From: Planctomycetota bacterium
Lineage (GTDB): Bacteria > Planctomycetota > Phycisphaerae > WQYP01
Length of the DNA: 33,656 nucleotides
NCBI GenBank assembly: GCA_021805985.1
Contig: JAJZDN010000046.1
Location: forward strand, 1-33,656
Direction: 5' to 3'
Numbering within the stretch: the first letter of the stretch is position 1; each line of letters starts with the position of its first letter. Of the stretch, positions 10,764 through 26,807 are shown piece by piece. The notes under the pieces were generated by a model. It searched no databases and was not told the DNA's origin. It saw nothing but the letters and a program-made list of their open reading frames with translations. The position numbers and the translations under genes are program-made.

Positions 10764-11645
10764 TCAAACCAACGTTTTCCCAGTCATCCCTTCCAAGACC
10801 CGCAGCGGTGACTTTTCCGGATTTTTCATCGCTTCCACCGGCAGGAGGTAGGTTTGTTCCAATAAATATTGCCCGGCATCCACCGCGTGCAGCACCTCGT
10901 CGGTAAAGCAGGTCCACGTACAGTGAGGGGGAAATACAAACGGGGTTTGGGAGGCGTTTTTTTGATACTGCTCATCCATTTTCGCCTGATCATGAAGTTG
11001 CAGCATGTAGTGATCGTACGCGGTGCGCGGGCTGCGGGTAATACGCAACAGGTACATGAACTCCCGGGAGCCGGGGAGCGGCGCTTTGAGCCGGGGAACA
11101 AACTTTTTGGCGAAATCCGCGAACGGTTCACCAATGCGCCAATCGCGACCTTTGCCTTGGGGATTGACGTTGCAAAATATCCGGATAATGCGCTTACCAC
11201 CAACGGGCCGGGCCGGAAATTGGTCCGGATGCAGTCGTGTATCATCTTTGGTAATTTTGCTGGCCCGACCTTTGATTTCAACGGGGCGGTAGCTGGTTCG
11301 CATACGCAGCAAGGCGGATTTATATTGAGGGAAAAGCCCCTGCATGAGCGTAAGGGTGCTTTCAGAATAGCGTTTCAATAGTGCAGCCAATTCCCGTTGC
11401 GCTGCATCGTCACCTTCCATGCCCTGAATGCGGCCATTGCGATGGTCATAACTGATGTTTTTGGCCCCGCCGTTGCTCCATACCGGGGTAAGAAACTTTT
11501 GTTCGTCGGGCAAGAACGTAAAATCCAGCCCGGGCAAATAAACCACATTGCCCGATTCCATCGCCGCCGTAGCTCCATTCTGCTGTTCCGAGGAAAACGG
11601 GCCATTCCATTGCGTTAAGTCAACGTTATAAATTCGATTCGTCAT
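10764..11645 (-). CDS. kdoO: Kdo 3-hydroxylase-like Fe(II)/2-oxoglutarate dioxygenase
   Basis: The 293-aa product matches the Kdo hydroxylase family, which converts the outer Kdo of lipid A-Kdo2 to Ko (D-glycero-D-talo-oct-2-ulosonic acid) using Fe(II), O2 and 2-oxoglutarate. The H-x-D iron motif is at LHPDQFPARP (H139, D141) and the distal His at TDEVLHAVDAGQ (H253). Further family segments are RIFCNVNPQGKGRDWRIGEP, YDHYMLQLHDQAKMDEQYQ, LLEQTYLLPVEAM and SPLRVLEGMTGK. The frame extends upstream to 11819, but the ATG at 11645 has GGAG 7 nt before it and fits the family's length. The upstream extension looks non-coding. Its presence argues that the organism makes Kdo-containing LPS. A GT87-type transferase gene follows it. 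Confidence 0.88.
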   Translation of the reverse strand: MTNRIYNVDLTQWNGPFSSEQQNGATAAMESGNVVYLPGLDFTFLPDEQKFLTPVWSNGGAKNISYDHRNGRIQGMEGDDAAQRELAALLKRYSESTLTLMQGLFPQYKSALLRMRTSYRPVEIKGRASKITKDDTRLHPDQFPARPVGGKRIIRIFCNVNPQGKGRDWRIGEPFADFAKKFVPRLKAPLPGSREFMYLLRITRSPRTAYDHYMLQLHDQAKMDEQYQKNASQTPFVFPPHCTWTCFTDEVLHAVDAGQYLLEQTYLLPVEAMKNPEKSPLRVLEGMTGKTLV

Positions 11646-11924
11646 AAAACACTCCACATGATCAGCAATACCATCGTTGCAACTTTGCCGGTAGCATACC
11701 GCAGAAGTGGCGGAACATTCCACTGGTGCTCGGTGACCGCAAGAAAATTTGGGCCTTAACCCACACCACTCTTGGCGATACCTGCCTGCATGCCCTGATT
11801 TGCAGGCGTGAAAGCCCACCAGGCAGCGGAGTTGACTTTAAGATAGAGCGGAAAAACCTGGATTAACTTTCGCACAATTAACTCCACGCTGCCGCATGGA
11901 GCTATTGGCCCGTGTCATGGTGGG
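11646..11924. repeat. dtxR-kdoO intergenic region with two inverted repeats
   Basis: This 279-nt gap lies between two minus-strand genes. It contains GCCTGCA (11784-11790) with TGCAGGC (11801-11807). A longer interrupted stem pairs GGCAGCGGAGTT (11822-11833) with AACTC (11880-11884) and CGCTGCC (11887-11893), with a 2-nt bulge. Neither is followed by a T-run on the minus strand, so they are not textbook terminators. They could attenuate or protect the dtxR 3' end, or be the ends of a decayed repeat. No gene is visible. Confidence 0.45.
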
Positions 11925-12620
11925 TCAGGATGATTTTCTGCGCCGCTGGCCCGCTGTGGCACAAGGCCGCACCAGAAATTTGGCCGCCGCCGTCATGGAC
12001 AGAATCACGGGTGGTTTACCATCGGGCCGGGCGGAAATAGCACCAGCCTGCGGATTGTTATGTTCAATGACCACCGCGGCTTTAGGTACCAAACCGCTGG
12101 TCTGTGCGAATCGCAAAAATTCAGAGCTTTGATCCATAATCCTGACAATTACGGTCCTGCTGCCGGTCTGTAATTCGGCCAGACTGCATAATTCCGGTGC
12201 TTCCACTTTTCCGGCAGACGAGGGAATAGGATCACCATGCGGATCTACCGACGGGTGCCCCAGCAGTAGATCTATTCGCGCCAAAACCGTTTCAGAAATG
12301 ACATGTTCGAGTTCCTCCGCTTCGCCGTGCGCTTCCGACCAGTCAATGCCCAGAATCTCAACGAGAAATAATTCCAGCAAACGGTGACGGCGCAAAACGT
12401 GCAGCGCCAGTTGCTCACCGGCTCTCGTAAGCCGAACGCCGGCTCGCGGGGCATATTTCGCCAGGCCGGAATCCGCGATAGCTTTGACCATGGTGGTAGC
12501 GGTTCCTGCAGTCACGCCGACCAGGGCCGCAAGCTTTCCCATGGGCACATATTTGCCGCGCGATTCCTGCTGCTGCAGCCACAGTTGCTTAAGATAATTT
12601 TCAATGGTTCTGCTGGCCAT
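11925..12620 (-). CDS. DtxR/MntR-family metal-dependent transcriptional regulator
   Basis: The 231-aa protein has the order of the DtxR family. A winged-helix domain occupies about residues 1-70 (MASRTIENYLKQLW, GVTAGTATTMVKAI, YAPRAGVRLTRAGEQLA). A dimerisation and metal-binding domain follows (HRLLELFLVEILGIDW, EELEHVISETVLARIDLLLG, HPSVDPHGDPIP), then a C-terminal FeoA/SH3-like domain (LCSLAELQTGSRTVIVRIMD). The Glu/His residues in EELEH and the HPxxDPHGDPIP segment supply metal ligands in the family. Divergence from an NRAMP gene suggests a manganese- or iron-responsive repressor. The start has no clear Shine-Dalgarno sequence. A minus-strand TATAAT (12700-12705) beside a perfect palindrome (12718-12731) suggests autoregulation. 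Which metal it senses is not decidable from sequence. Confidence 0.9.
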   Translation of the reverse strand: MASRTIENYLKQLWLQQQESRGKYVPMGKLAALVGVTAGTATTMVKAIADSGLAKYAPRAGVRLTRAGEQLALHVLRRHRLLELFLVEILGIDWSEAHGEAEELEHVISETVLARIDLLLGHPSVDPHGDPIPSSAGKVEAPELCSLAELQTGSRTVIVRIMDQSSEFLRFAQTSGLVPKAAVVIEHNNPQAGAISARPDGKPPVILSMTAAAKFLVRPCATAGQRRRKSS

Positions 12621-12699
12621 GCGTGGAAGTCCATAAAAAAAATTCGCTCGTACGATCGTTCAGAATATGATCCGTGATTGCCCCCTGAAAAGCAAGTCG

Positions 12700-12731
12700 A
12701 TTATACAAATAAAAAAGTTTGAGTACTCAAA
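12700..12731 (-). promoter_or_regulatory. Candidate dtxR promoter and DtxR-type operator
   Basis: On the minus strand TATAAT occupies 12705-12700. Upstream of it lies the perfect 14-bp palindrome TTTGAGTACTCAAA (12718-12731), which covers where a -35 box would sit. A related half-site, GCTCAAAC, is at 12747-12754, just before the divergent NRAMP promoter. A dyad of this size between a DtxR-family gene and its metal transporter is the expected position for the regulator's operator. The sequence is not the classical DtxR or MntR consensus, so the assignment rests on position and symmetry. Confidence 0.6.
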
Positions 12732-12760
12732 GTATTAAACACGAACGCTCAAACTACTTC

Positions 12761-12789
12761 TTGACAACGGCTTGCTGGCATCGTATATA
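12761..12789 (+). promoter_or_regulatory. Strong sigma70-type promoter for the NRAMP gene
   Basis: TTGACA (12761-12766) and TATATA (12784-12789) are separated by exactly 17 nt, an almost ideal sigma70 promoter. Transcription would start near 12796, giving a leader of about 157 nt before the NRAMP start at 12953. The half-site GCTCAAAC (12747-12754) abuts the -35 box, and the palindrome at 12718-12731 lies about 30 bp further upstream. Confidence 0.8.
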
Positions 12790-12797
12790 GTGACACC

Positions 12798-12965
12798 ATG
12801 GGATTGCGGGCCAAGGGCCTCATCATCATCCGGAATCGCCGCCGGGGTAATAGGGAGACGTTGGAAGCGTGTGAAGATCTCAACGGTGTGGTGACGGACG
12901 AATTAAAATGCGTTCGCAATGAAAAACAAATAAGTGAAAGCATTCTCTCATTATGGGTAGAATAA
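12798..12965 (+). CDS. Possible 55-codon leader ORF overlapping the NRAMP start
   Basis: An ATG only about two bases after the predicted transcription start opens a 55-codon frame (MGLRAKGLIIIRNRRRGN..., ending LSLWVE). Its stop overlaps the first codons of the NRAMP gene in another frame. The NRAMP start has no good ribosome-binding site, so translational coupling is conceivable. There is no room for a Shine-Dalgarno sequence before this ATG, so it would be translated leaderless. The peptide resembles nothing I know. It could be a chance frame in a long regulatory leader. Confidence 0.25.
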   Translation: MGLRAKGLIIIRNRRRGNRETLEACEDLNGVVTDELKCVRNEKQISESILSLWVE

Positions 12966-14383
12966 ATCAAAATTCAGAATCAAGTGGATCCGGAATTGGC
13001 ACTTCCCCTGCTGCCCATGAAAGCTCACCGGCACATGCGGGCACGTGCGCCGATCCGCTGACGGGGGAGGATATTTCCCGTGCGCGTGATCGCCTGGCCG
13101 TGGCCAAGGCCCGCAGCATCGCACAACCCCACGCGCGCTGGCGATGGATGCGGCTTTTATGGCTGCTGGCGGGACCGGGGGTTCTGGTATTTCTCGGCGA
13201 AAATGACGCGCCCAGCATGTTGTCCTATGCCGCCACCGGGTCGCAATTCGGTATCGGATTTTTTCTTCCGTTTATCCTTGTGACATTTATAGCCGGATGG
13301 ATTGTTCAGGAAATGACCGTTCGCCTGGGTTCGGTAACGCACCGTGGTCATGCTGAATTAATATTTGACCGATTCGGTCCATTCTGGGGCTTTTTTTCCA
13401 TGGCTGATTTGGTGCTGGGAAATTTTCTCACGCTGGTGACGGAATTCATCGGAATCCGTGCCGGTCTGGGTTATTTCGGAATACCGCCGCTGGTAGCTGT
13501 GGGAGGAGCCATTGCGCTTATTTTGGCGGTAACCATGACGCATCGCTATTGGACATGGGAACGCATCCTGCTTGGCCTGGCTTTGTTCAATGGACTGTTT
13601 GTTCCCGTGGCGCTGATGACCCATCCCGACTGGCCCGCCGTGGGGCATGCGTTTATTACCTTTGGCCCGCTACCCGGCGGTCTAGGTTCACAAAATATTC
13701 TTCTGATGATGGCCGATATCGGCGCTACTGTTACGCCTTGGATGCTGTTTTTTCAGCAGGGGGCCACCACCGACAAAGGCATGCAGCCGCGGGACATTGG
13801 ATTTGGCCGCTGGGACACATCTATTGGCACACTTCTGGCGGCCGTATTTGGTATGGCAGTGGTGCTGGCGACCGTTCCGCTATATACGCATGGGATCAGC
13901 ACAGAGAATTATCAGGGAGCCCAATTTGCGCAAGCCCTGCAGCCTTACGTCGGCAAACTTGGTTCAAGCCTCTTTGCCTTGGGCCTGGTAGAAGCGGGGC
14001 TGGTGGCGGCTATCAGCATTTCCACGTCGTCCGGTTATGCCTTTGGTGAAGTCATGCACCACGCCCATAGCCTCAATCGCAGCATCAAAGAGGCGTGGCC
14101 TTTTTATCTCACGTTGCTTGGCTCGGCGATCGCCGCCGGTGCCATCGTCTTAATTCCCCATGCCCCCTTGGAGTTTGTTGTGCTGATTGTCAATGTCATC
14201 GCGGTGCTGGCCATGCCACCGGCCTTGCTGTTTCTGCTACTGCTGGTCAATGACCGTGAAATTATGGGAGAAAGCGTCAATGGCCTATGGCTTAATATCG
14301 CAGGCATCGCGGTAACGGTGCTTCTGATTATCGCCGGTTTGGGTTATGGCCTAACCACTGTATTTCCCAAACTGCTCTCATGA
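12953..14383 (+). CDS. NRAMP-family divalent metal transporter, atypical metal-site type
   Basis: The 476-aa polytopic protein has a hydrophilic N-terminus of about 65 residues and then eleven or so membrane segments. It matches the NRAMP family overall (LLAGPGVLVFLGENDAPSML in TM1, GATVTPWMLFFQQGA in TM6). Canonical NRAMP carriers for Mn/Fe have DPGN in TM1 and MPHN in TM6. Here these read NDAPS (84-88) and TPWM (261-264), so the substrate site differs. Proteins of this subtype are widespread and usually annotated as divalent metal transporters, but their substrate is uncertain. The neighbouring DtxR-type gene supports a transition metal. The ATG at 12953 is the first start after an in-frame stop and lacks a strong ribosome-binding site. 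The next gene follows after 12 nt. Confidence 0.88.
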   Translation: MGRINQNSESSGSGIGTSPAAHESSPAHAGTCADPLTGEDISRARDRLAVAKARSIAQPHARWRWMRLLWLLAGPGVLVFLGENDAPSMLSYAATGSQFGIGFFLPFILVTFIAGWIVQEMTVRLGSVTHRGHAELIFDRFGPFWGFFSMADLVLGNFLTLVTEFIGIRAGLGYFGIPPLVAVGGAIALILAVTMTHRYWTWERILLGLALFNGLFVPVALMTHPDWPAVGHAFITFGPLPGGLGSQNILLMMADIGATVTPWMLFFQQGATTDKGMQPRDIGFGRWDTSIGTLLAAVFGMAVVLATVPLYTHGISTENYQGAQFAQALQPYVGKLGSSLFALGLVEAGLVAAISISTSSGYAFGEVMHHAHSLNRSIKEAWPFYLTLLGSAIAAGAIVLIPHAPLEFVVLIVNVIAVLAMPPALLFLLLLVNDREIMGESVNGLWLNIAGIAVTVLLIIAGLGYGLTTVFPKLLS

Positions 14384-14644: not shown

Positions 14645-14714
14645 AAAAAGCCCACAGCGTATAGCGCACATCTGCCCGTAACGGGTACCGATACCGGGCC
14701 TGCAGCAGCGTCAA

Positions 14715-14780
14715 TTTTTACAAAAGCCTGGATCCTGAGCCTTTATCTTTACAGCATTTTGATACCACCGCGGATAAAAT
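14715..14780 (+). promoter_or_regulatory. Kdp-type tandem T-tract motif and promoter of the glycosidase-like gene
   Basis: TTTTTACA begins at 14715, and a second copy, TCTTTACA-GC-ATTTTGATACC, runs 14746-14766. A -10-like TAAAAT lies at 14775-14780. The second copy matches the one in front of the kdp operon (16321-16341) at 18 of 21 positions. The distance from its first base to the TAAAAT is 29 nt in both places. Such conservation of sequence and spacing in two separate promoters points to one shared activator, probably of the KdpE type. Confidence 0.6.
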
Positions 14781-14897
14781 CATCTGATGTGCTACGCCAT
14801 AGCTGTCTGGCCGGACCGCCACTTTTTGACGACATGACGTATATTTACGGAAATTGCAGGGTTGCACATGCCATTTATTTGTCAGGAGATTGATTAA

Positions 14898-16244
14898 ATG
14901 GATAAGCCGCACGGTCACACATCGGGAACTGAACGTAAAGGATACTCCGCAAGCGGGCGTCGCGATTTCCTCCTGTCGTCATTGGCGACAGTGTCGCAAT
15001 TGTCAAGGATTTCAAAGAAACGGCTCGTACCTCCCTCATCCCAGCCGGTGCGGTTTAAGCAGGATCGATTCTGCATCAGCTTCTGGGTGGATCCGCCGGC
15101 CGGCGCGGAAATGGAAGCGCATTATGCCCAGCTTGCCGCGGCCAACTTCACGGTGGCTCTGGGCAGCTTTGGAGCCAATACACCAGCAACAGACCGCCAA
15201 CAATTGGATTTGTGCCAGAAGTACGGGTTGAAAGCACTCGTGTTCTTACCGGGTTACGAAGAGGGTGCGACGCAGGGCGTTGCCGATATTGACGACATCA
15301 GGCAAGCGGATAAATTTCCGAATTATCCAGCGTGCTGGGGATATATGCTCCACGACGAACCTAAGGCGGAAATATTCCCCGACCTTCGATACATGGTGAA
15401 TCACCTTCGCCGTGTACGCACCGGAAAGTTGGGGTTCATCAACCTGCTTCCAGCGTATGCCGGCGCGGCAAAATTGGGAACGCATACCTACGAAGAGTAC
15501 GTCGCGCGATACGTGCGGGAGGTGAATCCGGATGTGCTTTGTGTAGACTATTACCCGATGATGAAACCCCACCTGGACGGCCGGGACGGGTATTGTTCCA
15601 ATCTGGCCATCCTGCGTAAATATGCCCTGCGGAAAAATATACCCTTCTGGAATTTTTTCAATGCCATGCCCTTTGGGTCCTTCAGCGATCCGACCGAGGC
15701 TCAGATACGTTGGCAGATATACACGTCTCTCGCGTATGGAGCTAAAGGCGTGCTATATTTCTGTTATTGGACGCCATCGGGCGCAGAGTTTCCCCGGGGA
15801 GGCGCTCTTGTCAATGCGGATGGCATCCCTACGCGCCACTATCACCAGGCGCGCAGAATCAATGCGCATTTGAAACATCTCGGGCCAACCCTCATGCAGT
15901 TGACCAGTGCGCGTGTGTACCGAATTTTGCGCGGCACCAATCCAGCGGCGGTTCTTAAAGGATCGCCGCTCAAAAGTCTTACGCCCGGAGACTACCTGAT
16001 CGGAGTTTTCAAACACACCGATGGCAGGACCGCCGTATTGCTGAATAACTACAGTTATTGCTATTCCGCATGGCCGACAGTCGAGTTCGCCGCGCCCTTG
16101 GGGAGCATCACTGAGCTTGATCGGGCCACAGGCAGGGAGATACCCGTGGTTGACGCCAGTCCAGGGATGCGCGGGCTGCAAATTTCCCTTGGTGCCGCCG
16201 AGGGGAGACTATTTTTAATCGGACAGCAGCACGCACAGAGATAG
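14898..16244 (+). CDS. Exported TIM-barrel glycosidase-like protein
   Basis: The 448-aa protein begins with an RRDFLL segment (residues 21-26) preceding a short hydrophobic stretch, a plausible but weak twin-arginine signal. The body looks like a (beta/alpha)8 glycoside hydrolase: FTVALGSFGAN, LKALVFLPGY, CWGYMLHDEPKAEIFPDL (acid candidate E154), LCVDYYPMMKP, and GAKGVLYFCYWTP. A small beta domain follows (LIGVFKHTDGRTAVLLNNYS). The 'GYxLxDEP' element is typical of several poorly defined bacterial glycosidase families. I cannot name one. AGGAG lies 8-9 nt upstream of the ATG. Its promoter shares a motif with kdp, suggesting expression under potassium or osmotic stress. No partner glycan gene is adjacent. 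Confidence 0.65.
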   Translation: MDKPHGHTSGTERKGYSASGRRDFLLSSLATVSQLSRISKKRLVPPSSQPVRFKQDRFCISFWVDPPAGAEMEAHYAQLAAANFTVALGSFGANTPATDRQQLDLCQKYGLKALVFLPGYEEGATQGVADIDDIRQADKFPNYPACWGYMLHDEPKAEIFPDLRYMVNHLRRVRTGKLGFINLLPAYAGAAKLGTHTYEEYVARYVREVNPDVLCVDYYPMMKPHLDGRDGYCSNLAILRKYALRKNIPFWNFFNAMPFGSFSDPTEAQIRWQIYTSLAYGAKGVLYFCYWTPSGAEFPRGGALVNADGIPTRHYHQARRINAHLKHLGPTLMQLTSARVYRILRGTNPAAVLKGSPLKSLTPGDYLIGVFKHTDGRTAVLLNNYSYCYSAWPTVEFAAPLGSITELDRATGREIPVVDASPGMRGLQISLGAAEGRLFLIGQQHAQR

Positions 16245-16288
16245 AATTTAGTAGTTTTACGCACGGCAGCATCAGAATTATCCCGGCA

Positions 16289-16355
16289 TTTTTACACAAT
16301 CTTTATATCTTCAGCACTTTTTTTTACAGCATCTTGATATCGCGGCAGATAAAAT
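16289..16355 (+). promoter_or_regulatory. kdp promoter with tandem KdpE-like sites
   Basis: Two 21-bp direct repeats occur, TTTTTACA-CA-ATCTTTATATC (16289-16309) and TTTTTACA-GC-ATCTTGATATC (16321-16341). They have 18 of 21 identical bases and a 32-bp period, about three helical turns. A TAAAAT box (16350-16355) lies 29 nt from the start of the second repeat. The E. coli KdpE site, as I recall it, is also a T-tract ending in TTTACA just upstream of the kdp promoter. Tandem phased repeats are typical of OmpR-family response regulator sites. A small hairpin ACGCG/CGCGT (16368-16382) sits in the leader before the first ribosome-binding site. Confidence 0.65.
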
Positions 16356-16402: not shown

Positions 16403-16495
16403 ATGGACATTTTATACATCGGAGCCATGATTCTGCTGGGCGTTGTCACATGGCTGCTGGTGAAACTATGTGAATACTTAGGAGATCGAAGATGA
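16403..16495 (+). CDS. 30-residue membrane peptide at head of kdp operon
   Basis: This very small gene encodes a single membrane helix flanked by charged ends (MDILYIGAMILLG, then TWLLVKLCEYLGDRR). AAGGAG lies 7 nt before its ATG, the strongest ribosome-binding site in the operon leader. Its stop overlaps the kdpF start as ATGA, which indicates translational coupling. Short peptides of the form 'hydrophobic helix, then W-x-x-V-x-L-C-E/D-x-L' occur ahead of kdpF in other bacteria as I recall, usually unannotated. It may be a second small subunit or a regulator of the KdpFABC complex. No function is established from sequence. Confidence 0.75.
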   Translation: MDILYIGAMILLGVVTWLLVKLCEYLGDRR

Positions 16496-16581
16496 GTATC
16501 ATGGATTTCATCGGTCTGGTGCTGGCGGCAGCTATCCTGATTTACCTGATTATCGCAATGCTTTTTCCGGAGAAATTTTAA
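16492..16581 (+). CDS. kdpF: K+-transporting ATPase subunit KdpF
   Basis: The 29-aa product is one membrane helix (MSIMDFIGLVLAAAILIYLI, then IAMLFPEKF). It has the size and C-terminal charge pattern of KdpF, which stabilises the KdpABC complex in the membrane. AGGAG lies about 8 nt before the start, inside the preceding small gene. The gene overlaps that gene by 4 nt, and its TAA overlaps the kdpA ATG by one base. The compact coupling supports equimolar translation. Confidence 0.88.
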   Translation: MSIMDFIGLVLAAAILIYLIIAMLFPEKF

Positions 16582-18359
16582 TGACTCCTAACACGTGGAT
16601 CCAAATGGGAGTATTTCTGCTGGTGCTCTGCGCGCTGGTTAAGCCGCTTGGGGCATTTATGGCCCGGGTTTATGAGGGACAGCCGTGCGGGCTGGATAAA
16701 CCGCTGGGTTGGCTGGAACGGCTAACGTATCGGGCGGCGGGAATCAAGCCCGATCAGCCGATGACGTGGAAAACCTATGCCGTGGCACTGCTGCTGTTTA
16801 ATCTGCTGGGCGGAGTGGCGGTTTATGCGCTGCAGCGGTTGCAGGGATTTTTGCCCTTGAATCCGGAACATCTAAGTGCGGTATCCCCCGATCTGGCGTG
16901 GAATACCGCGGTCAGCTTTATCAGCAACACCAACTGGCAGAGCTACAACGGCGAAACCACCATGAGCTATCTGACGCAAATGCTGGCGCTGACGGTGCAA
17001 AATTTTGTCTCGGCGGCCACCGGCATGGCGGTGCTGGTGGCGCTGATCCGCGGTATCCGCAGTAAACAGACCGACAACATCGGAAATTTCTGGGTTGATC
17101 TGGTGCGTAGCACACTTTATATACTGCTGCCGCTATCGTTTGTCCTGGCCCTGCTGCTGGTTTCGCAGGGCGTGGTGCAGACGTTTTCGCCGTATAAAAA
17201 AGTTCCGCTGCTTCAGCCGGTCAGCTATGTGCAATCCAGCACCAACGCAGCGGGCAAAACGAATAATAAGACCGTATGGGTTAAACACCAGGTATTGCCC
17301 TTAGGCCCGGCGGCCTCCCAGATTGCCATCAAACAACTGGGCACCAACGGGGGCGGATTTTTCGGCGTCAACTCAGCCCATCCGTTTGAAAATCCCAATC
17401 CCTTAAGCAATTTCATGGAAGTACTGGCCATTTTGCTGATTCCTGCCGCACTGTGCTACACCTTTGGCCGCATGGTCGGGGACACGCGCCAGGGCTGGGC
17501 AATTTTTGCAGCCATGATGATTATTTTTGTACCGCTGATGGTCGGCTGTGTGTGGGCGGAACATTCCGGTAATCCGAAATTGACTGCTCTGGGGGTTAAT
17601 CAAAGCCCCTCTGGCCTGATGTCCGGCGGCAACATGGAGGGAAAGGAAACGCGTTTCGGCGTTACCGATTCTGCCATCTGGGCCGCCACCACCACCGCTG
17701 CTTCCAATGGCTCAGTAAACTCCATGCACGATTCGTACACACCGCTGGGCGGATTAGTACCGATGTGGCTGATGGAACTGGGCGAAGTGATTTTCGGCGG
17801 CGTGGGGTCGGGCCTGTATGGCATGTTGATGTTTGTCATCGTGGCCGTCTTTATTGCCGGGCTGATGGTGGGCCGCACGCCGGAATATCTGGGCAAGAAA
17901 ATTGAAGCCTTTGAAATGAAAATGGCGACGATTTGTGTGCTGGTTCCACCGGCCCTGGTATTGGTGACCGCAGCGATCGCCTGCGTGGCCGTTATGGGCA
18001 CCAGCGCATTGGCAAATCCCGGTGCCCACGGTTTTTCAGAAATTCTCTACTGGGCGAGTTCCGTAGGAAATAACAACGGCAGCGCCTTCGCCGGTCTAGG
18101 CACCAATACGCCATTCTACAATATCGCCGGCGGCACTCTTATGTGGGTATCGCGCTATTTTCTAATTGTGCCGACGCTGGCTCTGGCCGGCTCTCTGGCC
18201 AGAAAAAAGCAGATTCCTGTTTCCAGCGGAACGCTTCCGACGCATGACGCGCTATTTACCGCGTGGCTGGTCGCGACGGTAGTGCTTATTGGCGCTTTGA
18301 CGTTCCTGCCCGCCCTGGCGTTAGGCCCGATAGTTGAATCTTTGCATCTTTGGCATTGA
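16581..18359 (+). CDS. kdpA: K+-transporting ATPase subunit KdpA
   Basis: KdpA is the potassium-selective channel-like subunit of the high-affinity KdpFABC pump. The 592-aa protein has about ten membrane spans and the characteristic pore segments: FISNTNWQSYNGETTMSYLT (first pore loop region), GTNGGGFFGVNSAHPFENP (about residues 254-272), and GNNNGSAFAGLGTNTPFYN near the C-terminus. It is slightly longer than E. coli KdpA (557 aa), partly through a Lys/Asn-rich extracytoplasmic loop (around NAAGKTNNKTVWVKHQ). GGAG precedes the start. It lies between kdpF and kdpB. Confidence 0.98.
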   Translation: MTPNTWIQMGVFLLVLCALVKPLGAFMARVYEGQPCGLDKPLGWLERLTYRAAGIKPDQPMTWKTYAVALLLFNLLGGVAVYALQRLQGFLPLNPEHLSAVSPDLAWNTAVSFISNTNWQSYNGETTMSYLTQMLALTVQNFVSAATGMAVLVALIRGIRSKQTDNIGNFWVDLVRSTLYILLPLSFVLALLLVSQGVVQTFSPYKKVPLLQPVSYVQSSTNAAGKTNNKTVWVKHQVLPLGPAASQIAIKQLGTNGGGFFGVNSAHPFENPNPLSNFMEVLAILLIPAALCYTFGRMVGDTRQGWAIFAAMMIIFVPLMVGCVWAEHSGNPKLTALGVNQSPSGLMSGGNMEGKETRFGVTDSAIWAATTTAASNGSVNSMHDSYTPLGGLVPMWLMELGEVIFGGVGSGLYGMLMFVIVAVFIAGLMVGRTPEYLGKKIEAFEMKMATICVLVPPALVLVTAAIACVAVMGTSALANPGAHGFSEILYWASSVGNNNGSAFAGLGTNTPFYNIAGGTLMWVSRYFLIVPTLALAGSLARKKQIPVSSGTLPTHDALFTAWLVATVVLIGALTFLPALALGPIVESLHLWH

Positions 18360-18408
18360 CGTGACGGTATTCCTTTGACCATAAACACAAATTGGAGTTG
18401 CAATAATC

Positions 18409-20475
18409 ATGGCAGCGAAATCAAATTCTCTTTTCAACGGTGCCATTGCGCGGCGCGCTGTTCTTGAGTCCTTTAAAAAGCTCGACCCGCGAATCCAAGT
18501 GCGCAATCCCGTCATGTTTGTTGTCTATATCGGCAGTATGTTAACCAGTGTCTTATTTATCCAAGCGCTTTTCGGAAAGGGTGAAGCCTCGCCCGGATTT
18601 ATTCTTGGGGTCAGCCTGTGGCTCTGGTTCACCGTGCTCTTCGCCAATTTTGCCGAAGCCATGGCCGAAGGGCGCGGAAAGGCCCAGGCGGATACGCTGC
18701 GCCGCGCCCGGCGCGATACGCCCGCTAAAAAGCTGACCGAAGCGCGCCGCGATGCCCCGGTGCAAACCGTCTCGGCTACCGCTTTGCGAAAAGAGGACAT
18801 TCTCTTGGCGGAAGCCGGCGACTTAATTCCCGCCGACGGTGAAGTCATTGAGGGCGTAGCTTCAGTGGACGAGTCGGCCATAACCGGGGAATCGGCCCCG
18901 GTCATCCGGGAATCCGGCGGCGATCGCTCCAGTGTTACCGGCGGTACGCGTGTGCTTTCCGACTGGCTGATTATCCGCGTGGCCTGCAATCCCGGAGAAA
19001 CATTTCTGGATCGCATGATCGCCATGGTGGAAGGGGCTAAACGCCAGAAAACCCCCAATGAAATCGCCCTGAATATTCTCCTGGCCAAACTGACCATTAT
19101 CTTTCTACTGGCCACGGCCACGCTGCTGCCATTTTCCATATACGCGGTGAATGCCGCCGGCCACGGCGCTCCCGTCACGCTTACGGTGCTGGTTGCACTT
19201 TTGGTCTGCCTGATCCCCACGACCATCGGCGGTCTTTTATCCGCCATCGGCATCGCGGGCATGGATCGGATGATTCAAAAAAATGTCATTGCCACTTCCG
19301 GCCGCGCGGTGGAAGCCGCGGGCAATGTGGATGTGTTGCTGTTAGATAAAACCGGAACCATTACGCTTGGCAACCGTCAGGCGGTAAGTTTCATCCCTGC
19401 CAAGGGTGTAGCCGTTGAACAACTCGCAGACGCGGCGCAGCTATCGTCTCTGGCGGATGAAACGCCGGAGGGCCGCAGCATTGTGGTGCTGGCCAAGGAA
19501 CGCTACAAGTTGCGCGGCAGAGAATTAAGTTCCCTCCACGCCCAGTTCATACCCTTTACCGCCCAAACCCGCATGAGCGGTGTGGATTTTGACGGGAGAA
19601 AAATCCGCAAAGGAGCTGCTGAGGCCATTGCCGCGTATGTGGCCGAACTCGGCGGCGAATTTGCCGCATCGGTTAAGACTGCGGTGGACGAAATATCCCG
19701 CCGTGGTGGAACACCTCTGGCTGTAGCAGATGGTCCCAATGTTTTAGGCGTTATTGAACTCAAAGATATTGTCAAAGGCGGCATCAAAGAGCGTTTTGCA
19801 CAGCTCCGACGCATGGGTATTAAAACGGTGATGATTACGGGGGATAATCCCCTTACCGCCGCCGCCATCGCCGCCGAAGCGGGCGTGGATGATTTTCTTG
19901 CCCAGGCTACGCCGGAAGCCAAACTCAAACTCATCCGCGAATATCAGCAGGGCGGTCGGCTGGTCGCAATGACGGGGGACGGCACCAATGATGCGCCCGC
20001 CCTGGCACAGGCGGACGTGGCCGTGGCCATGAACTCCGGCACGCAGGCCGCCAAAGAAGCCGGCAACATGGTTGATCTGGATTCCAATCCAACCAAACTC
20101 ATTGAGGTTATTGAAAGCGGCAAACAACTTTTGATGACGCGCGGTTCATTAACCACGTTCTCCATTGCCAATGATGTCAGTAAATATTTTGCCATTATCC
20201 CGGCAATATTTGTGGGCATTTATCCCGCGATGGGGCGGCTGAATATCATGCATTTGGCCACCCCGGGTAGCGCCATTATGTCCGCCGTGATTTTCAATGC
20301 TCTGATTATCATCGTGCTGATTCCGCTGGCTCTGCGCGGTGTAAAATACCGCCCCATGCCTGCCGGAAAGCTGCTGTTGCAGAATATTCTGCTTTATGGC
20401 GTCGGAGGTCTTATCGTGCCGTTCATCGGAATTAAGCTCATTAACATGGCACTTGTGGCCATGCACCTGGCGTAA
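18409..20475 (+). CDS. kdpB: K+-transporting ATPase subunit KdpB (P-type ATPase)
   Basis: KdpB is the P1A-type ATPase that energises KdpA. The 688-aa protein has the actuator motif TGES (in [13 protein letters not shown]), whose Ser is the inhibitory phosphorylation site in E. coli. It has the catalytic DKTGT with Asp at about residue 313, the nucleotide-binding region, and the hinge motif [20 protein letters not shown]. Membrane helices at both ends match the family ([20 protein letters not shown] contains the CLIPTTIGG ion-path motif). Length is normal. It starts 49 nt after kdpA. Confidence 0.98.
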
Positions 20476-20502
20476 GTAACCGTTTTCGAAAGGATTTAAA
20501 TA

Positions 20503-21117
20503 ATGTGGTCCCAATGCCGTCCGGCAATAGTTGTGTTTGTCATCTTGTCCGCCATCACCGGTTTGGCGTATCCCTTGGTGGTTACGGGCGTTGCTGCCGT
20601 GGTGTTCCCATGGCAGGCCAATGGCAGCGTGTTAACAGATAGTGCCGGAAACCCCGTCGGATCGCGTCTGATCGGCCAATATTTTTCCGCTTCAAAATAC
20701 TTCTGGCCTCGGCCCTCTGCCACTTCACCGGTGCCGTATACCTCCTACAATGGCCCCTTGGGGGATTCCGGATCAGGCTCCAATACAGGGCCGACCAACC
20801 CGAAGCTGCTGGCCTCAGTGCAACGCCGGATCAAACGTCTTCGCGCCGCTGATCCAACGGAAAAAGGACCGGTTCCCGTGGATCTGGTAACTTCCAGCGC
20901 CAGCGGGTTGGACCCGGACATCAGCCCGGCGGCCGCATTTTATCAGGTGCAGCGCGTAGCGGAGGCGCGCGGTTTGCCGGTTTCCACTGTCAAAAACCTT
21001 GTTGAACATTTCTGCCAGGGACGTGATTTCGGTATTCTCGGCGCCCCAAGAGTCAATGTGCTGGAACTTAATTCAGCTTTAGATCGCTTATCGGCTGCCA
21101 AGGCTTCCAAAGACTGA
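20503..21117 (+). CDS. kdpC: K+-transporting ATPase subunit KdpC
   Basis: KdpC is the periplasm-facing single-span subunit that raises potassium affinity of the pump. The 204-aa product has one N-terminal membrane helix ([20 protein letters not shown]) with the family pattern T-G-x-x-Y-P-L. The conserved segments [40 protein letters not shown] and [15 protein letters not shown] follow. AAGG lies before the ATG, 27 nt after kdpB. It closes the pump genes; a porin gene follows after 170 nt. Confidence 0.97.
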
Positions 21118-21287
21118 TTGGTGGAGAATATGGTGCCAATAACGACAATAACGATAGGGGGGCGGCAACGGCACGCCGCGTCGAAATTCACCTTTCAAGG
21201 GATGTTCCACGTTGCGGCGCAGACTGCCGGAACGGATCTTGTTGAACAGTTACACATCCGGTTCTTGCATTTTTGAAGGAGAAACAA

Positions 21288-22685
21288 ATGCGACCATTTA
21301 CTACGTTGTTGGCCATGGCCGCTGTGTTGGCGACCGCTGGCCTGTCTCTGGCGGATTCGTCCACCCCTACGGCCGCACCGGCCGCACCGGCGGCAGCTCC
21401 GGCACCAGCCGCCGCCCCGGCGGCAGCTCCGGCACCAGCCGCCGCCCCGGCGGATACCAACCCGCTGCTGATGTATTCTCTGGATCAAATTAAGACCGGA
21501 GATACTTCCGTTGGACAAACTTTGTCCAATGCCGGTATTAACATCTATGGTTACCTGGAAATGGGTTACACGGCTGACCTCGCCGGGCCACCTCCTGCGG
21601 GCACCACCATTCCGGGCCGCGTATTTGACACGGAATACGGCAACCACCTTCAGATGGATCAGTTGGATCTGACCATTGCCAAGGCCATTAACTTTTCCGA
21701 TCCCAAGTATCTCAAACGCGGCTGGGATATCGGCGGCCATTTTGAATTCGTTTATGGTTATGACCCATCGTACGGCGGTGACAGTTTCCATTCCTCTGGT
21801 CTGGATTTTGGCTACAATCAATCCAAAGCGTTTTCACCGCTTTATCAAGCCGATATTGAACAGGCGTATGTCACCTTGGCCCTGCATCTCGGCGGAGCCG
21901 GCAACGTGAAGATCAAAGTCGGTAAGTTTGTGACGCTCATGGGTGAGGAAACTATCAACCCCACCACCAATTACCTCTACTCCCACACCTATTCCTTTGG
22001 CTACATGATTCCGTATACGCAAACCGGTGTTCTGGCGGAATATGTTCCCAATAGTCAATGGACGTTCTGGGGTGGTGTTACCCGCGGCTGGAATCAGACG
22101 TTTTATGATAACAACAGCAGTGTGGATTTCTTAGGCGAAGTTGGATACGTGCCAAACTCACAATGGGACTTCATTGTTAATGTATCAGAAGGGCCGCAGG
22201 ACGGTGCCATGGGCAACGCCACCTTAGGCAATAACAATGATTACCGCACGGTTGTTGAGCCATTGATCACCTATACACCGCCGATACTTAATAACGCGTT
22301 GACTCTGGTTTCCGATACGGTTGCCGGGTATGACGGTGCCGGCAACAGCACCAATGGCAATCAGTCTTCCGGCTGGTTGAGCGAAGCGTTGTATCAGAAC
22401 TATGCGCTTAACAGCCACTTCAGCTTTACCACCCGTGAAGAATATGCGTATGTCGGCTCGGGCCTGGGCAGTGCGGGAATTGGAATTAATCCCTTTGGTA
22501 TTGAAAATTACACCAACATGGGCGACCTGACGTTTGGTGTAAAAATTACTCCATTCCCCAATGGCAGCTTAAGCAAGAATTTCTATATTCGTCCGGAAAT
22601 TCGCGAAGACCTCGCTGACCATACCGTGTTTAACGGCAAACACTACCAAACAACTTTTGGTATCGACGCGATCTACCAGTTCTAA
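21288..22685 (+). CDS. Outer-membrane beta-barrel porin, BBP2/OmpL-like
   Basis: The 465-aa protein has a signal peptide (LLAMAAVLATAGLSLADS) and a low-complexity Ala-Pro linker (about residues 28-60). The rest is rich in Gly, Asn and aromatic residues arranged as alternating amphipathic strands (GYLEMGYTADLAG, FEFVYGYDPSYGG, VKIKVGKFVTLMGEETINP). It ends TTFGIDAIYQF with a terminal Phe, the outer-membrane insertion signature. This resembles the BBP2 'putative beta-barrel porin' family of Gram-negative bacteria. AAGGAG lies 8 nt before the ATG at 21288, preferred over an in-frame start at 21273. It sits between kdpC and kdpD, suggesting it helps K+ or osmolytes cross the outer membrane when Kdp is on. 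Confidence 0.85.
   Translation: MRPFTTLLAMAAVLATAGLSLADSSTPTAAPAAPAAAPAPAAAPAAAPAPAAAPADTNPLLMYSLDQIKTGDTSVGQTLSNAGINIYGYLEMGYTADLAGPPPAGTTIPGRVFDTEYGNHLQMDQLDLTIAKAINFSDPKYLKRGWDIGGHFEFVYGYDPSYGGDSFHSSGLDFGYNQSKAFSPLYQADIEQAYVTLALHLGGAGNVKIKVGKFVTLMGEETINPTTNYLYSHTYSFGYMIPYTQTGVLAEYVPNSQWTFWGGVTRGWNQTFYDNNSSVDFLGEVGYVPNSQWDFIVNVSEGPQDGAMGNATLGNNNDYRTVVEPLITYTPPILNNALTLVSDTVAGYDGAGNSTNGNQSSGWLSEALYQNYALNSHFSFTTREEYAYVGSGLGSAGIGINPFGIENYTNMGDLTFGVKITPFPNGSLSKNFYIRPEIREDLADHTVFNGKHYQTTFGIDAIYQF
21391..21450 (+). repeat. Two exact 30-bp tandem repeats in the porin linker
   Basis: The 30-bp unit at 21391-21420 is repeated without change at 21421-21450 and encodes the Ala/Pro run. Exact identity at the DNA level suggests recent duplication and a slippage-prone, length-variable linker between the signal peptide and the barrel. 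Confidence 0.9.
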
Positions 22686-22877: not shown

Positions 22878-25550
22878 ATGATGGAACAAGCGCCCAGACC
22901 CAATCCTGATGAACTGCTTCGGCTTCTTACCAAGCAGGAGGAATCGCTGCGCCGTGGCAAGCTGAAGATATTTTTCGGTGCCTCGGCCGGTGTTGGCAAA
23001 ACCTATACGATGCTGGAGGAAGCACAGCGACGGGCTATTGATGGCGTACGGGTGCTGGTCGGTTATGCAGAGCCGCACATTCGCCCGGAAACCGAAGCGT
23101 TGCTGCTGGGCCTGGATATACTTCCTTATAAACTCGTGGAATACCGCGGAGCCGTTCTCAAGGAATTGGACCTCGATGCAGCCTTGAGCAAAGCACCGGA
23201 ATTGATTCTGGTCGATGAACTGGCCCATTCCAACGCCCCTGGAATGCGGCACGCCAAACGCTGGCAGGACATAGCTGAACTTCTGGCCGCAGGTATTGAC
23301 GTGTATACAACACTCAATGTACAGCATCTCGAGTCTGTCAATGATATTGTAGAACGGGCCACAGGCGTCAAGGTTCGGGAGACGCTGCCTGATTCGGTTT
23401 TTCAAACTGCTGATGAAGTTCAGCTTGTGGACCTTCCTCCGGAAAAGCTCATTGAACGGCTGCAGGAAGGGAAAATTTACACACCCGATCGCACCGCCGC
23501 CGCCTTGCAGCATTTCTTCAGCATCGGAAATCTTCTGGCCCTTCGGGAATTGGCCCTGCGCCGCACGGCTGATCGCATTAACCAGGATATTGATGCCCTG
23601 CGGCAGGGGAGTGCCGCCGGCCGGACATCGGCCGTTTCTGAACGCATTTTAGTATGCGTCGGCCCCAGCCCGTTTTCGGCCAATCTGGTAAGAACCGCAT
23701 CTCGTATGGCCGCTGCCTGGAAAGCTCCCTGGATTGCGGTCTATGTTGAAACGGCAAAATCTCTGGGCTTATCCGAAGCCGATCGGCAGCGTGTGGCACG
23801 CACACTTGCTTTGGCCGAGCAACTCGGCGGCCAAGCGGTAACGCTTTCCGGCTTGCATCCGGATCAGGAGATTATCGCCTACGCCAAAAGCCGCCATGTG
23901 GCCCGCATCATCGTGGGAAAACCCGCTGGTCGCGGCTGGCGACGCCTACTCCAGCGATCGTTTGTGGACCGCCTGATTATGCGCAGCGGTGACATTCATC
24001 TTGAATTAATCCGTGAAGATGCCGAAAGCCATGCGCTGGCCCCTGTGAGTCGGAAAAAAAAGTGGGACCGACGGGGAATTGCCTGGGCCGCAGGGGTTGT
24101 GACTTTCAATACGGCGTGGGGTATTTTTCTTTATCACACGCTCGGGCTGTCGGATATCAATGTCATCATGTTTTATCTCCTGGGCGTGATCTGGATTTCC
24201 GCCCGCTACAGCCGATTTGCCGGCATTTTAACCGCTGTTCTTAGCGTCGCTGCGTTCGATTTTACTGTGGTAAAGCCCTACTATTCGTTCGCTATATCCG
24301 ATACCCAGTATTTACTCACGTTTGCCGCCATGTTGGTTACGGGTATTTATATCAGCACGCTTACGGCCCGTCTGCGCAATCAGGAACGCCTTTCTCGATC
24401 GCGTGAACAGCGCACCGAATCGCTGTTACGATTAAGCCGGGAATTAATTCTCTGTCGGGATCATGATGCCCTGTTGCAGGTTTCCCTCGGGCACGTCGCC
24501 GAGTTCTTCAATTCTCCGGCCGCTGTGATACTGCCCGATGCATCCGGCATTCCAATATTGACCCACAGTTCCGATGAGGTAACGCTTGATGACAAGGAAT
24601 TGTCCGTGGCGGATTGGGTCATCCGTCACGGAGAAAAAGCCGGTGCCGGCACTTCCACGCTGCCGTCGGCCAAAGCTATTTACCTGCCGTTAAGAGGCGT
24701 TAAATCTACACTTGGTTCCCTCTGTATCATTCCATCGGACCTTCAACGCTTCAACCACCCCGACGAATTACGCACGCTTGAAGCCTTTACCGCGCAGATT
24801 GCCGTGGCCCTGGAGCGCATGATGCTTTCCGAAGAATCCCACCGCGCCTGGGAACGCACCGAGCTTGAAGTGCTCCGCAATACACTCTTATCCGCCGTAT
24901 CGCACGACCTGCGCACGCCCCTGGCGGCCATCACCGGCTCGGCCAGCAGCATTCTTGAAGCCGGATCATCCATGTCCGCCGAAACCCGTGAAGAATTGCT
25001 GACCACCATCTCCCAGGAATCACAGCGTATGGAAGGCCTTATCGAAAAACTTTTGGAAATGACCCGGTTGGAATCGGGGAATCCGTCGATTCAAACGCAG
25101 ACTGTCGATGTCGGGGAAATTATCATTTCTGCGGTAGCTCGTTGGCGAAACAATGACCAGAATCGCGCATTTCACGTTGATATTCCTGAGTCGCTTCCTT
25201 TAGTTCAAGGCGACCCCGTTCTGCTGGAACAGGTTCTATCCAATTTACTGGAAAATGCCATCAATCATGCACCCGTATCCACCCCCATTGAAATCACTGC
25301 CATCGCCCGGCCTGATTCTGTACTTATCCGCGTTATGGACCGTGGCTCCGGACTTCCCATTCATGACACGCAAAGAATATTCGAAAAGTTTTATCGCGGG
25401 TCATCCTCTCCACGCCGCCCCGGCCTGGGCCTGGGCCTGGCGATCTGCCGCGCTATTCTCCACCTCCACCACGGCACGATCACCGCCCGCAACCGCGACG
25501 GCGGCGGTGCCGAGTTCCAAGTGGCAGTCCCCACTGCCACAACTCGTTGA
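22878..25550 (+). CDS. kdpD: Osmosensitive K+ channel histidine kinase KdpD
   Basis: KdpD senses potassium limitation and phosphorylates KdpE. The 890-aa protein has the full domain order: an N-terminal KdpD domain with Walker A GASAGVGKT (about residues 34-42), a Usp-like domain (SERILVCVGPSPFSANLV...GKPAGRGWRRLLQRS), four membrane spans (about 396-495), a GAF-like domain, and a kinase core. The phospho-acceptor is His at about 676 (SAVSHDLRTPLAAITGS). The N box is NLLENAINHAP, with G boxes DRGSGLP and GLGLGLAIC. Length equals that of E. coli KdpD (894 aa). The start is ATG-ATG, with a poor ribosome-binding site. It is 192 nt beyond the porin and is followed 30 nt later by a convergent gene, so no kdpE is linked. 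Confidence 0.97.
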   Translation: MMEQAPRPNPDELLRLLTKQEESLRRGKLKIFFGASAGVGKTYTMLEEAQRRAIDGVRVLVGYAEPHIRPETEALLLGLDILPYKLVEYRGAVLKELDLDAALSKAPELILVDELAHSNAPGMRHAKRWQDIAELLAAGIDVYTTLNVQHLESVNDIVERATGVKVRETLPDSVFQTADEVQLVDLPPEKLIERLQEGKIYTPDRTAAALQHFFSIGNLLALRELALRRTADRINQDIDALRQGSAAGRTSAVSERILVCVGPSPFSANLVRTASRMAAAWKAPWIAVYVETAKSLGLSEADRQRVARTLALAEQLGGQAVTLSGLHPDQEIIAYAKSRHVARIIVGKPAGRGWRRLLQRSFVDRLIMRSGDIHLELIREDAESHALAPVSRKKKWDRRGIAWAAGVVTFNTAWGIFLYHTLGLSDINVIMFYLLGVIWISARYSRFAGILTAVLSVAAFDFTVVKPYYSFAISDTQYLLTFAAMLVTGIYISTLTARLRNQERLSRSREQRTESLLRLSRELILCRDHDALLQVSLGHVAEFFNSPAAVILPDASGIPILTHSSDEVTLDDKELSVADWVIRHGEKAGAGTSTLPSAKAIYLPLRGVKSTLGSLCIIPSDLQRFNHPDELRTLEAFTAQIAVALERMMLSEESHRAWERTELEVLRNTLLSAVSHDLRTPLAAITGSASSILEAGSSMSAETREELLTTISQESQRMEGLIEKLLEMTRLESGNPSIQTQTVDVGEIIISAVARWRNNDQNRAFHVDIPESLPLVQGDPVLLEQVLSNLLENAINHAPVSTPIEITAIARPDSVLIRVMDRGSGLPIHDTQRIFEKFYRGSSSPRRPGLGLGLAICRAILHLHHGTITARNRDGGGAEFQVAVPTATTR

Positions 25551-25580: not shown

Positions 25581-26807
25581 TTACCTTGTCGTATATCCCT
25601 CGTTGTTGGTGACGAAAGATGGCCCTGTTCGCGAATCGGGTGAAGAGGGGACGGCATAGCGGTGCGTCTTGCGCATGTCCCGTGGCGTCTGTTTAAAATA
25701 TCTGTGAAAAGATGTGCTGAACTGCCGTGGTGACGAATAGCCGGCCGCTTCGGCAACCTGAGCAATGGGCATATCGGAATCCAGAATAAGTTGCCGGGCG
25801 GTTTCCATTTGAGTGCGTTGTATTTCCATGGCGGGAGTCCGATTCAGCGCCGCCAGAAATCGCCGATCCATGGTGGGGCGGGAAATCGCCATGTGGTCGG
25901 CCAGCCACTTCACAGACAGTCCGTTTCGCAATCGCTGTTGAATAAGGCCCAGGGCCTCACGTACCATTTCATCTTCTACCCCAAAAATATCCGACGATAA
26001 TCGCGTAATAACGCGCACTGGCTCAATGAGTACTGTGGAAGATCTGACTTTCCGTCCGTGCATCATGCGATAAAGTAACTCCATGGCCCGCAATCCAATT
26101 TCTTGGGTATTTTGCAGAATGCTGGATAAATGTGGCATGCGCAGTTGTCCGTAGAGGTCATCATTGTCAACGCCCAATAATGCCACATCTTCGGGTATTC
26201 GGATTTTTAAATGCTGGCAAGCCTCTACCAGATACGCTCCAAGATGATCGTCCGCCGCGAAAATACCGGCGGGCTGCGGCAAGTCCCTCAGCCATCGGGC
26301 GGCCGTGCTGGGAAATATTCCAGCGCGGTCTTCCGCCTCCGCATTTTCTTTTTGAAAACACTGCGCGATGATGCCATGCTTCTTGGCTTGTTGGAAAAAA
26401 CCTTCCCGACGCACGTCGGAGGAATAATGTTGTGACATTCCGTAGTAAACCAGCCGTCTAAATCCTCGATCAATAAAATAATCCGCCGCCATTCGTCCGA
26501 CCATGGCATCATCGGTTACAACGCGTGGAACACTTGATGGCTTAAGTTCTGCCGAAACGTCGACCGCTGGCAACCGGCGTTTGGCAATGGTCTCGGGTAG
26601 TCGCCATGCTGGCGGGCAACCCGCCGCAATCACGCCATGCACATTTCCTTGAAGAAGCCGCGGTATATCTGCGGATTCAAAGCTGTCCGGAAAAAAAACA
26701 CGAATTTCCGGTCGGGTGGCAGCGCATTTTGCTACCCCGCGCAGAACATCTCGATTGTAGGCAATCATTAGATTGCCGAGAAACAACACTCGCTTATCTT
26801 TTCGCAT
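25581..26807 (-). CDS. XylR-like transcriptional regulator (LacI-type sensor + AraC domain)
   Basis: The 408-aa protein starts with a periplasmic-binding-protein-like sensor (RVLFLGNLMIAYNRDVLRGV, VVTDDAMVGRMAADYFIDRG, GIFAADDHLGAYLVEAC, DVALLGVDNDD). It ends with two helix-turn-helix units of the AraC family (MAISRPTMDRRFLAALN, and PIAQVAEAAGYSSPRQFSTSFHRYFKQTP). This is the architecture of E. coli XylR, and paralogues are numerous in planctomycetes and Verrucomicrobia, where they usually control sugar use. The ligand cannot be told. It diverges from the PEP-CTERM gene across a 520-nt region holding repeated GCTTRAATGGTAA motifs. The start has no obvious Shine-Dalgarno sequence. Confidence 0.9.
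   Translation of the reverse strand: MRKDKRVLFLGNLMIAYNRDVLRGVAKCAATRPEIRVFFPDSFESADIPRLLQGNVHGVIAAGCPPAWRLPETIAKRRLPAVDVSAELKPSSVPRVVTDDAMVGRMAADYFIDRGFRRLVYYGMSQHYSSDVRREGFFQQAKKHGIIAQCFQKENAEAEDRAGIFPSTAARWLRDLPQPAGIFAADDHLGAYLVEACQHLKIRIPEDVALLGVDNDDLYGQLRMPHLSSILQNTQEIGLRAMELLYRMMHGRKVRSSTVLIEPVRVITRLSSDIFGVEDEMVREALGLIQQRLRNGLSVKWLADHMAISRPTMDRRFLAALNRTPAMEIQRTQMETARQLILDSDMPIAQVAEAAGYSSPRQFSTSFHRYFKQTPRDMRKTHRYAVPSSPDSRTGPSFVTNNEGYTTR

Follow-up and report, generated by a model that had tools for sequence, protein, structure and literature searches.

A candidate KdpE operator at a planctomycete kdp promoter and at a diverged copy of that promoter before a glycosidase-like gene

In the stretch of planctomycete DNA analysed here (33,656 nucleotides, hereafter the window), the promoter of the kdpFABC operon and that of a neighbouring glycosidase-like gene share a motif that can, with good support, be identified as a candidate operator of KdpE, the response regulator for potassium. 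On sequence criteria, the two promoters are related by descent, that of the glycosidase-like gene being a copy that has diverged from the kdp promoter. The combination of a KdpE operator with a captured copy of the kdp promoter suggests a lineage-specific event of promoter capture, through which the glycosidase-like gene is probably expressed with kdpFABC at low K+; a probability of about 0.78 is assigned to this reading. The genome that holds the window (G000) is a draft assembly of 197 contigs and 4.68 Mb; other G numbers denote relatives, C numbers contigs and L numbers loci.

Tandem half-sites at the kdp and glycosidase promoters

The shared motif starts at position 16321 in the kdp promoter (TTTTTACAGCATCTTGATATC) and at 14746 in the promoter of the glycosidase-like gene (TCTTTACAGCATTTTGATACC), with 18 of 21 bases identical. 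At both sites a TAAAAT hexamer lies exactly 29 nt 3' of the motif start, at 16350 and 14775 respectively, and an extra TTTACA copy is found on the 5' side, at 16291 (32 bp before 16323) and at 14717 (31 bp before 14748). The positions, the identity, the distance to TAAAAT and the upstream T-tract copies 31–32 bp away all agree with the initial annotation. Its portrayal of the repeats as T-tracts can be refined: the copies are present, and a complete one consists of two 6-bp half-sites, TTTACA-N5-TT(T/G)ATA, arranged in tandem with an 11-bp period. Both kdp boxes (16291 and 16323) and the glycosidase box at 14748 are intact. The upstream copy in the glycosidase promoter, TTTACAAAAGCCTGGAT, has kept the first half-site alone, and its PSSM score is 8.8 versus 30–37 for the other three boxes. 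The features of the window are as follows.

14709..14798, + strand: diverged copy of the kdp promoter, approximate extent with inferred limits, aligned with the kdp promoters of G007, G002 and G000
14717..14733, + strand: degenerate upstream candidate KdpE box of the glycosidase-like gene promoter; aligns with kdp box 1
14748..14764, + strand: candidate KdpE box TTTACA-GCATT-TTGATA of the glycosidase-like gene promoter
14775..14780, + strand: -10-like TAAAAT of the glycosidase-like gene, 10 bp past the last half-site, with the geometry of congener kdp promoters
14898..16244, + strand: putative exported TIM-barrel glycoside-hydrolase-like protein, 448 aa, with a twin-arginine-type start
16291..16307, + strand: candidate kdp KdpE box 1, TTTACA-CAATC-TTTATA, kept in congeners
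16323..16339, + strand: candidate kdp KdpE box 2, TTTACA-GCATC-TTGATA, 32 bp after box 1, kept in congeners
16350..16355, + strand: kdp -10-like TAAAAT, 10 bp past the last half-site
16403..16495, + strand: ORF of a 30-aa membrane peptide before kdpF, conserved across the class, no Pfam family
16492..16581, + strand: kdpF (Pfam Potass_KdpF, E=8e-9)
16581..21117, + strand: kdpA, kdpB and kdpC (Pfam KdpA, E1-E2_ATPase and KdpC)
22878..25550, + strand: kdpD sensor kinase (Pfam KdpD)

Several other genes of the window deserve mention. A single-span peptide of ∼30 aa, with a pattern like MDxLYxxxxxFFxxxWxLxxLCxxL, is present in most of the 29 relatives and is possibly an additional small Kdp subunit or regulator. 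A gene for a BBP2-type outer-membrane porin (21273–22685, + strand) is interposed between kdpC and kdpD, and no separate KdpE box was detected for it. At 11925–14383 a DtxR/MntR-type repressor gene (− strand) is divergent from that of an Nramp transporter (+ strand), a pair also located upstream of kdp in congeners. The window further harbours a Kdo hydroxylase gene (Pfam Kdo_hydroxy; 10764–11819, − strand) and a gene for a sugar-binding AraC-type regulator (25581–26807, − strand) that has a close paralogue on G000:C121 (L010).

The putative regulator and its sites across relatives

The recognition sequence of Escherichia coli KdpE, as determined biochemically, comprises TTTATA and TTTACA, 5 bp apart (PMC3264566); the half-site letters and the 5-bp spacer of the boxes at 14748, 16291 and 16323 equal those of this site. 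The window lacks kdpE, an orthologue of which is found at G000:C175:39362-40096 (L007/L142). Its best PDB match is E. coli KdpE (4kny, 7.5e-75) and its top NCBIfam family is KdpE, with 278.6 bits, a value below the curated cut-off of 325 bits. Residues R193, R200 and T215 of the recognition helix and wing (numbered by our own count), which are important for KdpE binding in E. coli (PMC3264566), are conserved. Orthologues of kdpE lie inside the kdp cluster in G004, G010–G013, G028 and G032; in G000 and several congeners the gene is unlinked to kdpFABC-kdpD and adjoins nuoH-like and permease-like genes.

The kdp upstream regions of 29 relatives were compared. Every congener whose kdp upstream region is readable has retained both boxes at the 32-bp distance, and paired boxes at 32 bp are also present in other genera of the class, in which the half-sites drift to TTGATG. 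Boxes likewise precede kdp in G010, G011, G019, G023–G025, G069 and others. The last half-site is separated from the -10-like hexamer by 10 bp in G000, G002–G005, G007, G011, G019 and G023–G025, and by 11 bp in G008, G018 and G027; the kdp promoters of G010, G019 and G024 contain a single box with the 10-bp spacing kept. As far as sequence can tell, this spacing is a PhoB-like geometry. In pho box promoters the -35 position is replaced by PhoB boxes. As only 10 bp separate the promoter-proximal box from the -10, so that the box occupies the place of a -35, KdpE probably recruits RNA polymerase here in lieu of a -35 element. A sigma-70 scan detected a consensus promoter neither at kdp nor at the glycosidase-like gene, a result in line with replacement of the -35.

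The distribution of the motif was surveyed with a 25-position profile whose training set consisted solely of kdp boxes from six genomes and did not include the boxes of the glycosidase-like gene and of C82; the best 150 candidates of a first pass were scored. Among these, the matches in the genome holding the window are the two kdp boxes (box 2, 24.5 bits; box 1, 23.3 bits), the glycosidase box (20.5 bits) and a box on C82 (20.3 bits), and the best background match reaches 12.6 bits, leaving an 8-bit gap below the four boxes. For the glycosidase box, the 20.5 bits correspond to E=0.0028 in 4.68 Mb, far above chance. Weak matches with three mismatches on C160 and C163 were not recovered by the profile scan and were dropped. 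The initial annotation had proposed such a genome scan, and its outcome is not a scatter of matches: among the candidates scored, the sole strong one beyond the window precedes an antiporter gene, in keeping with the expectation that the motif marks K+/osmotic genes.

G000:C82:401-1921, − strand: Na_H_Exchanger+Usp antiporter (L004/L096; orthologues L113–L116), candidate KdpE box 31 bp before TAAACT

The antiporter, which combines Na_H_Exchanger with the universal-stress domain Usp (743 aa in G004), has kept its box in five genomes of two genera (G000, G002, G004, G006 and G019). The distance from the box to the -10-like TAAACT is 31 bp in all five, and in G006 and G019 the surroundings of the box have largely diverged. 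The box is degraded but partly left in G007 and in the antiporter paralogue on C94 of G000, and absent from the more distant homologues examined. A putative small, cation-linked KdpE regulon of the genus that includes this antiporter is well supported by these sites, and the box stands more anciently before the antiporter than before the glycosidase-like gene. On C82 a GH3 gene lies just upstream of the antiporter gene and has the same direction. In the part of the literature that was covered, neither a planctomycete KdpE regulon nor a KdpE-controlled antiporter was found; the sites reported here offer a testable KdpE regulon for a lineage with none described in that literature.

Origin of the glycosidase promoter

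The predicted structure of the 448-aa protein (pLDDT 70.7, pTM 0.74) is a TIM barrel followed by a C-terminal beta domain, and the top PDB folds for this model are a GH164 beta-mannosidase, the best, and then GH51. No named Pfam or NCBIfam family matches the protein over the cut-off, a faint GH42 Pfam match recurs in all seven family members, and a PDB sequence search gave nothing meaningful. On the strength of the model, it is a putative clan A-like TIM-barrel protein of glycoside hydrolase type. The ORF is intact and, by its substitution pattern, under purifying selection, with dN<<dS versus G003 and G027 (dN 0.16 and dS 1.4 versus G003). Its GC and GC3 fit those of the neighbouring genes.

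In the five congeners with readable synteny (G002, G003, G004, G005 and G007) the kdp promoter is immediately preceded by the genes for the Nramp transporter and an 82-aa protein, and no other gene intervenes. In G000 alone, the glycosidase-like gene is inserted between this pair and kdp, an arrangement thus known from one draft genome. A 75-nt profile of the whole kdp promoter matches the glycosidase promoter at 14732–14783 with 38.2 bits (E=4.8e-9 genome-wide), and the columns outside the half-sites and the -10, that is the spacers, also match the kdp set (p<5e-5). In contrast, antiporter promoters, which have the operator only, match this profile over the box alone. As its spacers match too, the glycosidase promoter appears to derive from a kdp promoter. 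The initial annotation had regarded the two as independent promoters that share sequence and spacing; the insertion seen only here, the E value and the matching spacers point instead to common descent. The duplication is not recent, as the longest exact match between the two window promoters is 10 bases and similarity between the copy and the kdp columns beyond the -10 is not significant in ungapped comparison. The copy aligns best with the kdp promoter of G007, not with the neighbouring one in its own genome.

Orthologues of the glycosidase-like gene in G003, G004 and G027, and the paralogue on C55 of G000, lie elsewhere and not beside kdp; the box is absent at all of these and at L102–L111. 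No conserved glycosidase–kdp neighbourhood was found in 100 relatives and GTDB contigs. The lack of the box at orthologues argues against a conserved functional link between K+ and the glycosidase. The potassium regulon put forward in the initial annotation therefore holds in part: KdpE-type boxes, a KdpE orthologue and an antiporter target speak for it, and the glycosidase is not a conserved member. Between the glycosidase-like gene and kdp, the search for a terminator gave one weak candidate (16183–16207), no more than expected by chance, so that read-through into kdp stays possible.

Regulation, competing readings and known systems

In the proposed mechanism, low K+ would act through KdpD to generate phospho-KdpE, a dimer of which would bind the two half-sites, 11 bp apart, in head-to-tail orientation. 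Occupation of the box that precedes the -10 by 10 bp would then allow polymerase recruitment, for kdp as well as for the captured promoter of the glycosidase-like gene, with KdpE presumably acting as an activator; the box of the antiporter lies two turns further upstream. The inserted glycosidase-like gene is preceded by a divergent kdp promoter copy and is therefore probably switched on with kdpFABC when K+ is low.

The boxes might instead serve another member of the OmpR/PhoB family, for which tandem half-sites with an 11-bp period are typical at large and of which the genome holds further representatives. The identity of the half-site letters with those of E. coli KdpE, the location of boxes at kdp promoters across the class and the conserved recognition residues make this very unlikely. 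An artefact of assembly, by which the gene was misjoined between the Nramp–82-aa pair and kdp, would suit a draft of 197 contigs and a gene order unseen in any other genome examined. It is nevertheless highly improbable: an assembler could have been misled by exact repeats, but none shared by the promoter copies exceeds 10 bases, the base composition of the gene fits its neighbours and box-bearing promoter sequence is found on both flanks.

Other alternatives concern the role of the captured promoter. It could be a passenger, the decaying relic of an insertion that drives no KdpE-dependent transcription, with the gene silent or expressed otherwise. The strong divergence of the copy, its degenerate upstream box and the box-free orthologues elsewhere fit this scenario, which is unlikely rather than negligible: decay has affected the upstream box but spared the proximal box, its 10-bp spacing and the -10, single-box kdp promoters with the same spacing exist in three relatives, and the ORF is intact and constrained. 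Conversely, the glycosidase could be a selected member of a potassium-stress regulon whose promoter arose for it, as the initial annotation had it. An intact box and a second, conserved non-kdp target favour this idea, but the box precedes the gene in one genome only, with orthologues elsewhere devoid of it, and the promoter duplicates the one next to it; we regard it as decidedly improbable. The most far-reaching proposal, a KdpE regulon beyond kdp that comprises the antiporter and the captured glycosidase, has a PhoB-like geometry unlike that of E. coli and renders the glycosidase useful at low K+ today, is unlikely as a whole. Promoter capture with probable co-induction is the reading preferred here. 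It would provide a clear natural case of how insertion into a regulated promoter can subject a gene to a stress regulator, and provides a reminder that similar neighbouring promoters need not be independent.

The sites resemble the E. coli kdpFABC operator (PMC3264566) in that two AT-rich, direct 6-bp half-sites with 5 bp between them lie upstream of kdpFABC. The half-site order is reversed in the planctomycete, with TTTACA first, and the boxes usually come as a pair at a distance of 32 bp, with 10 bp left between the second box and the -10. Similarity is also evident with the pho boxes of PhoB (PMC4415409), which are likewise 11-bp repeats in tandem; a regulator of the OmpR/PhoB family binds them head-to-tail and contacts sigma. 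The half-site letters differ, and the signal is phosphate there and K+ here. As for the regulon, the kdp operon is the main target in both organisms. In E. coli, kdpFABC was previously the sole known KdpE target, and adeP, uxaA and uxaC have been added as direct ones (PMC7657598). Compared with this essentially single target operon, the planctomycete displays a conserved second candidate target beside kdp, the cation antiporter, and in one genome a box at a glycosidase-like gene. Finally, the history of the glycosidase promoter is analogous to promoter capture by acquired genes (e.g. PMC11111574), in which a duplication places a promoter upstream and the acquired gene gains expression. That case arose under laboratory selection; the present one concerns an uncultured planctomycete, in which a copy of a stress promoter has diverged in nature.
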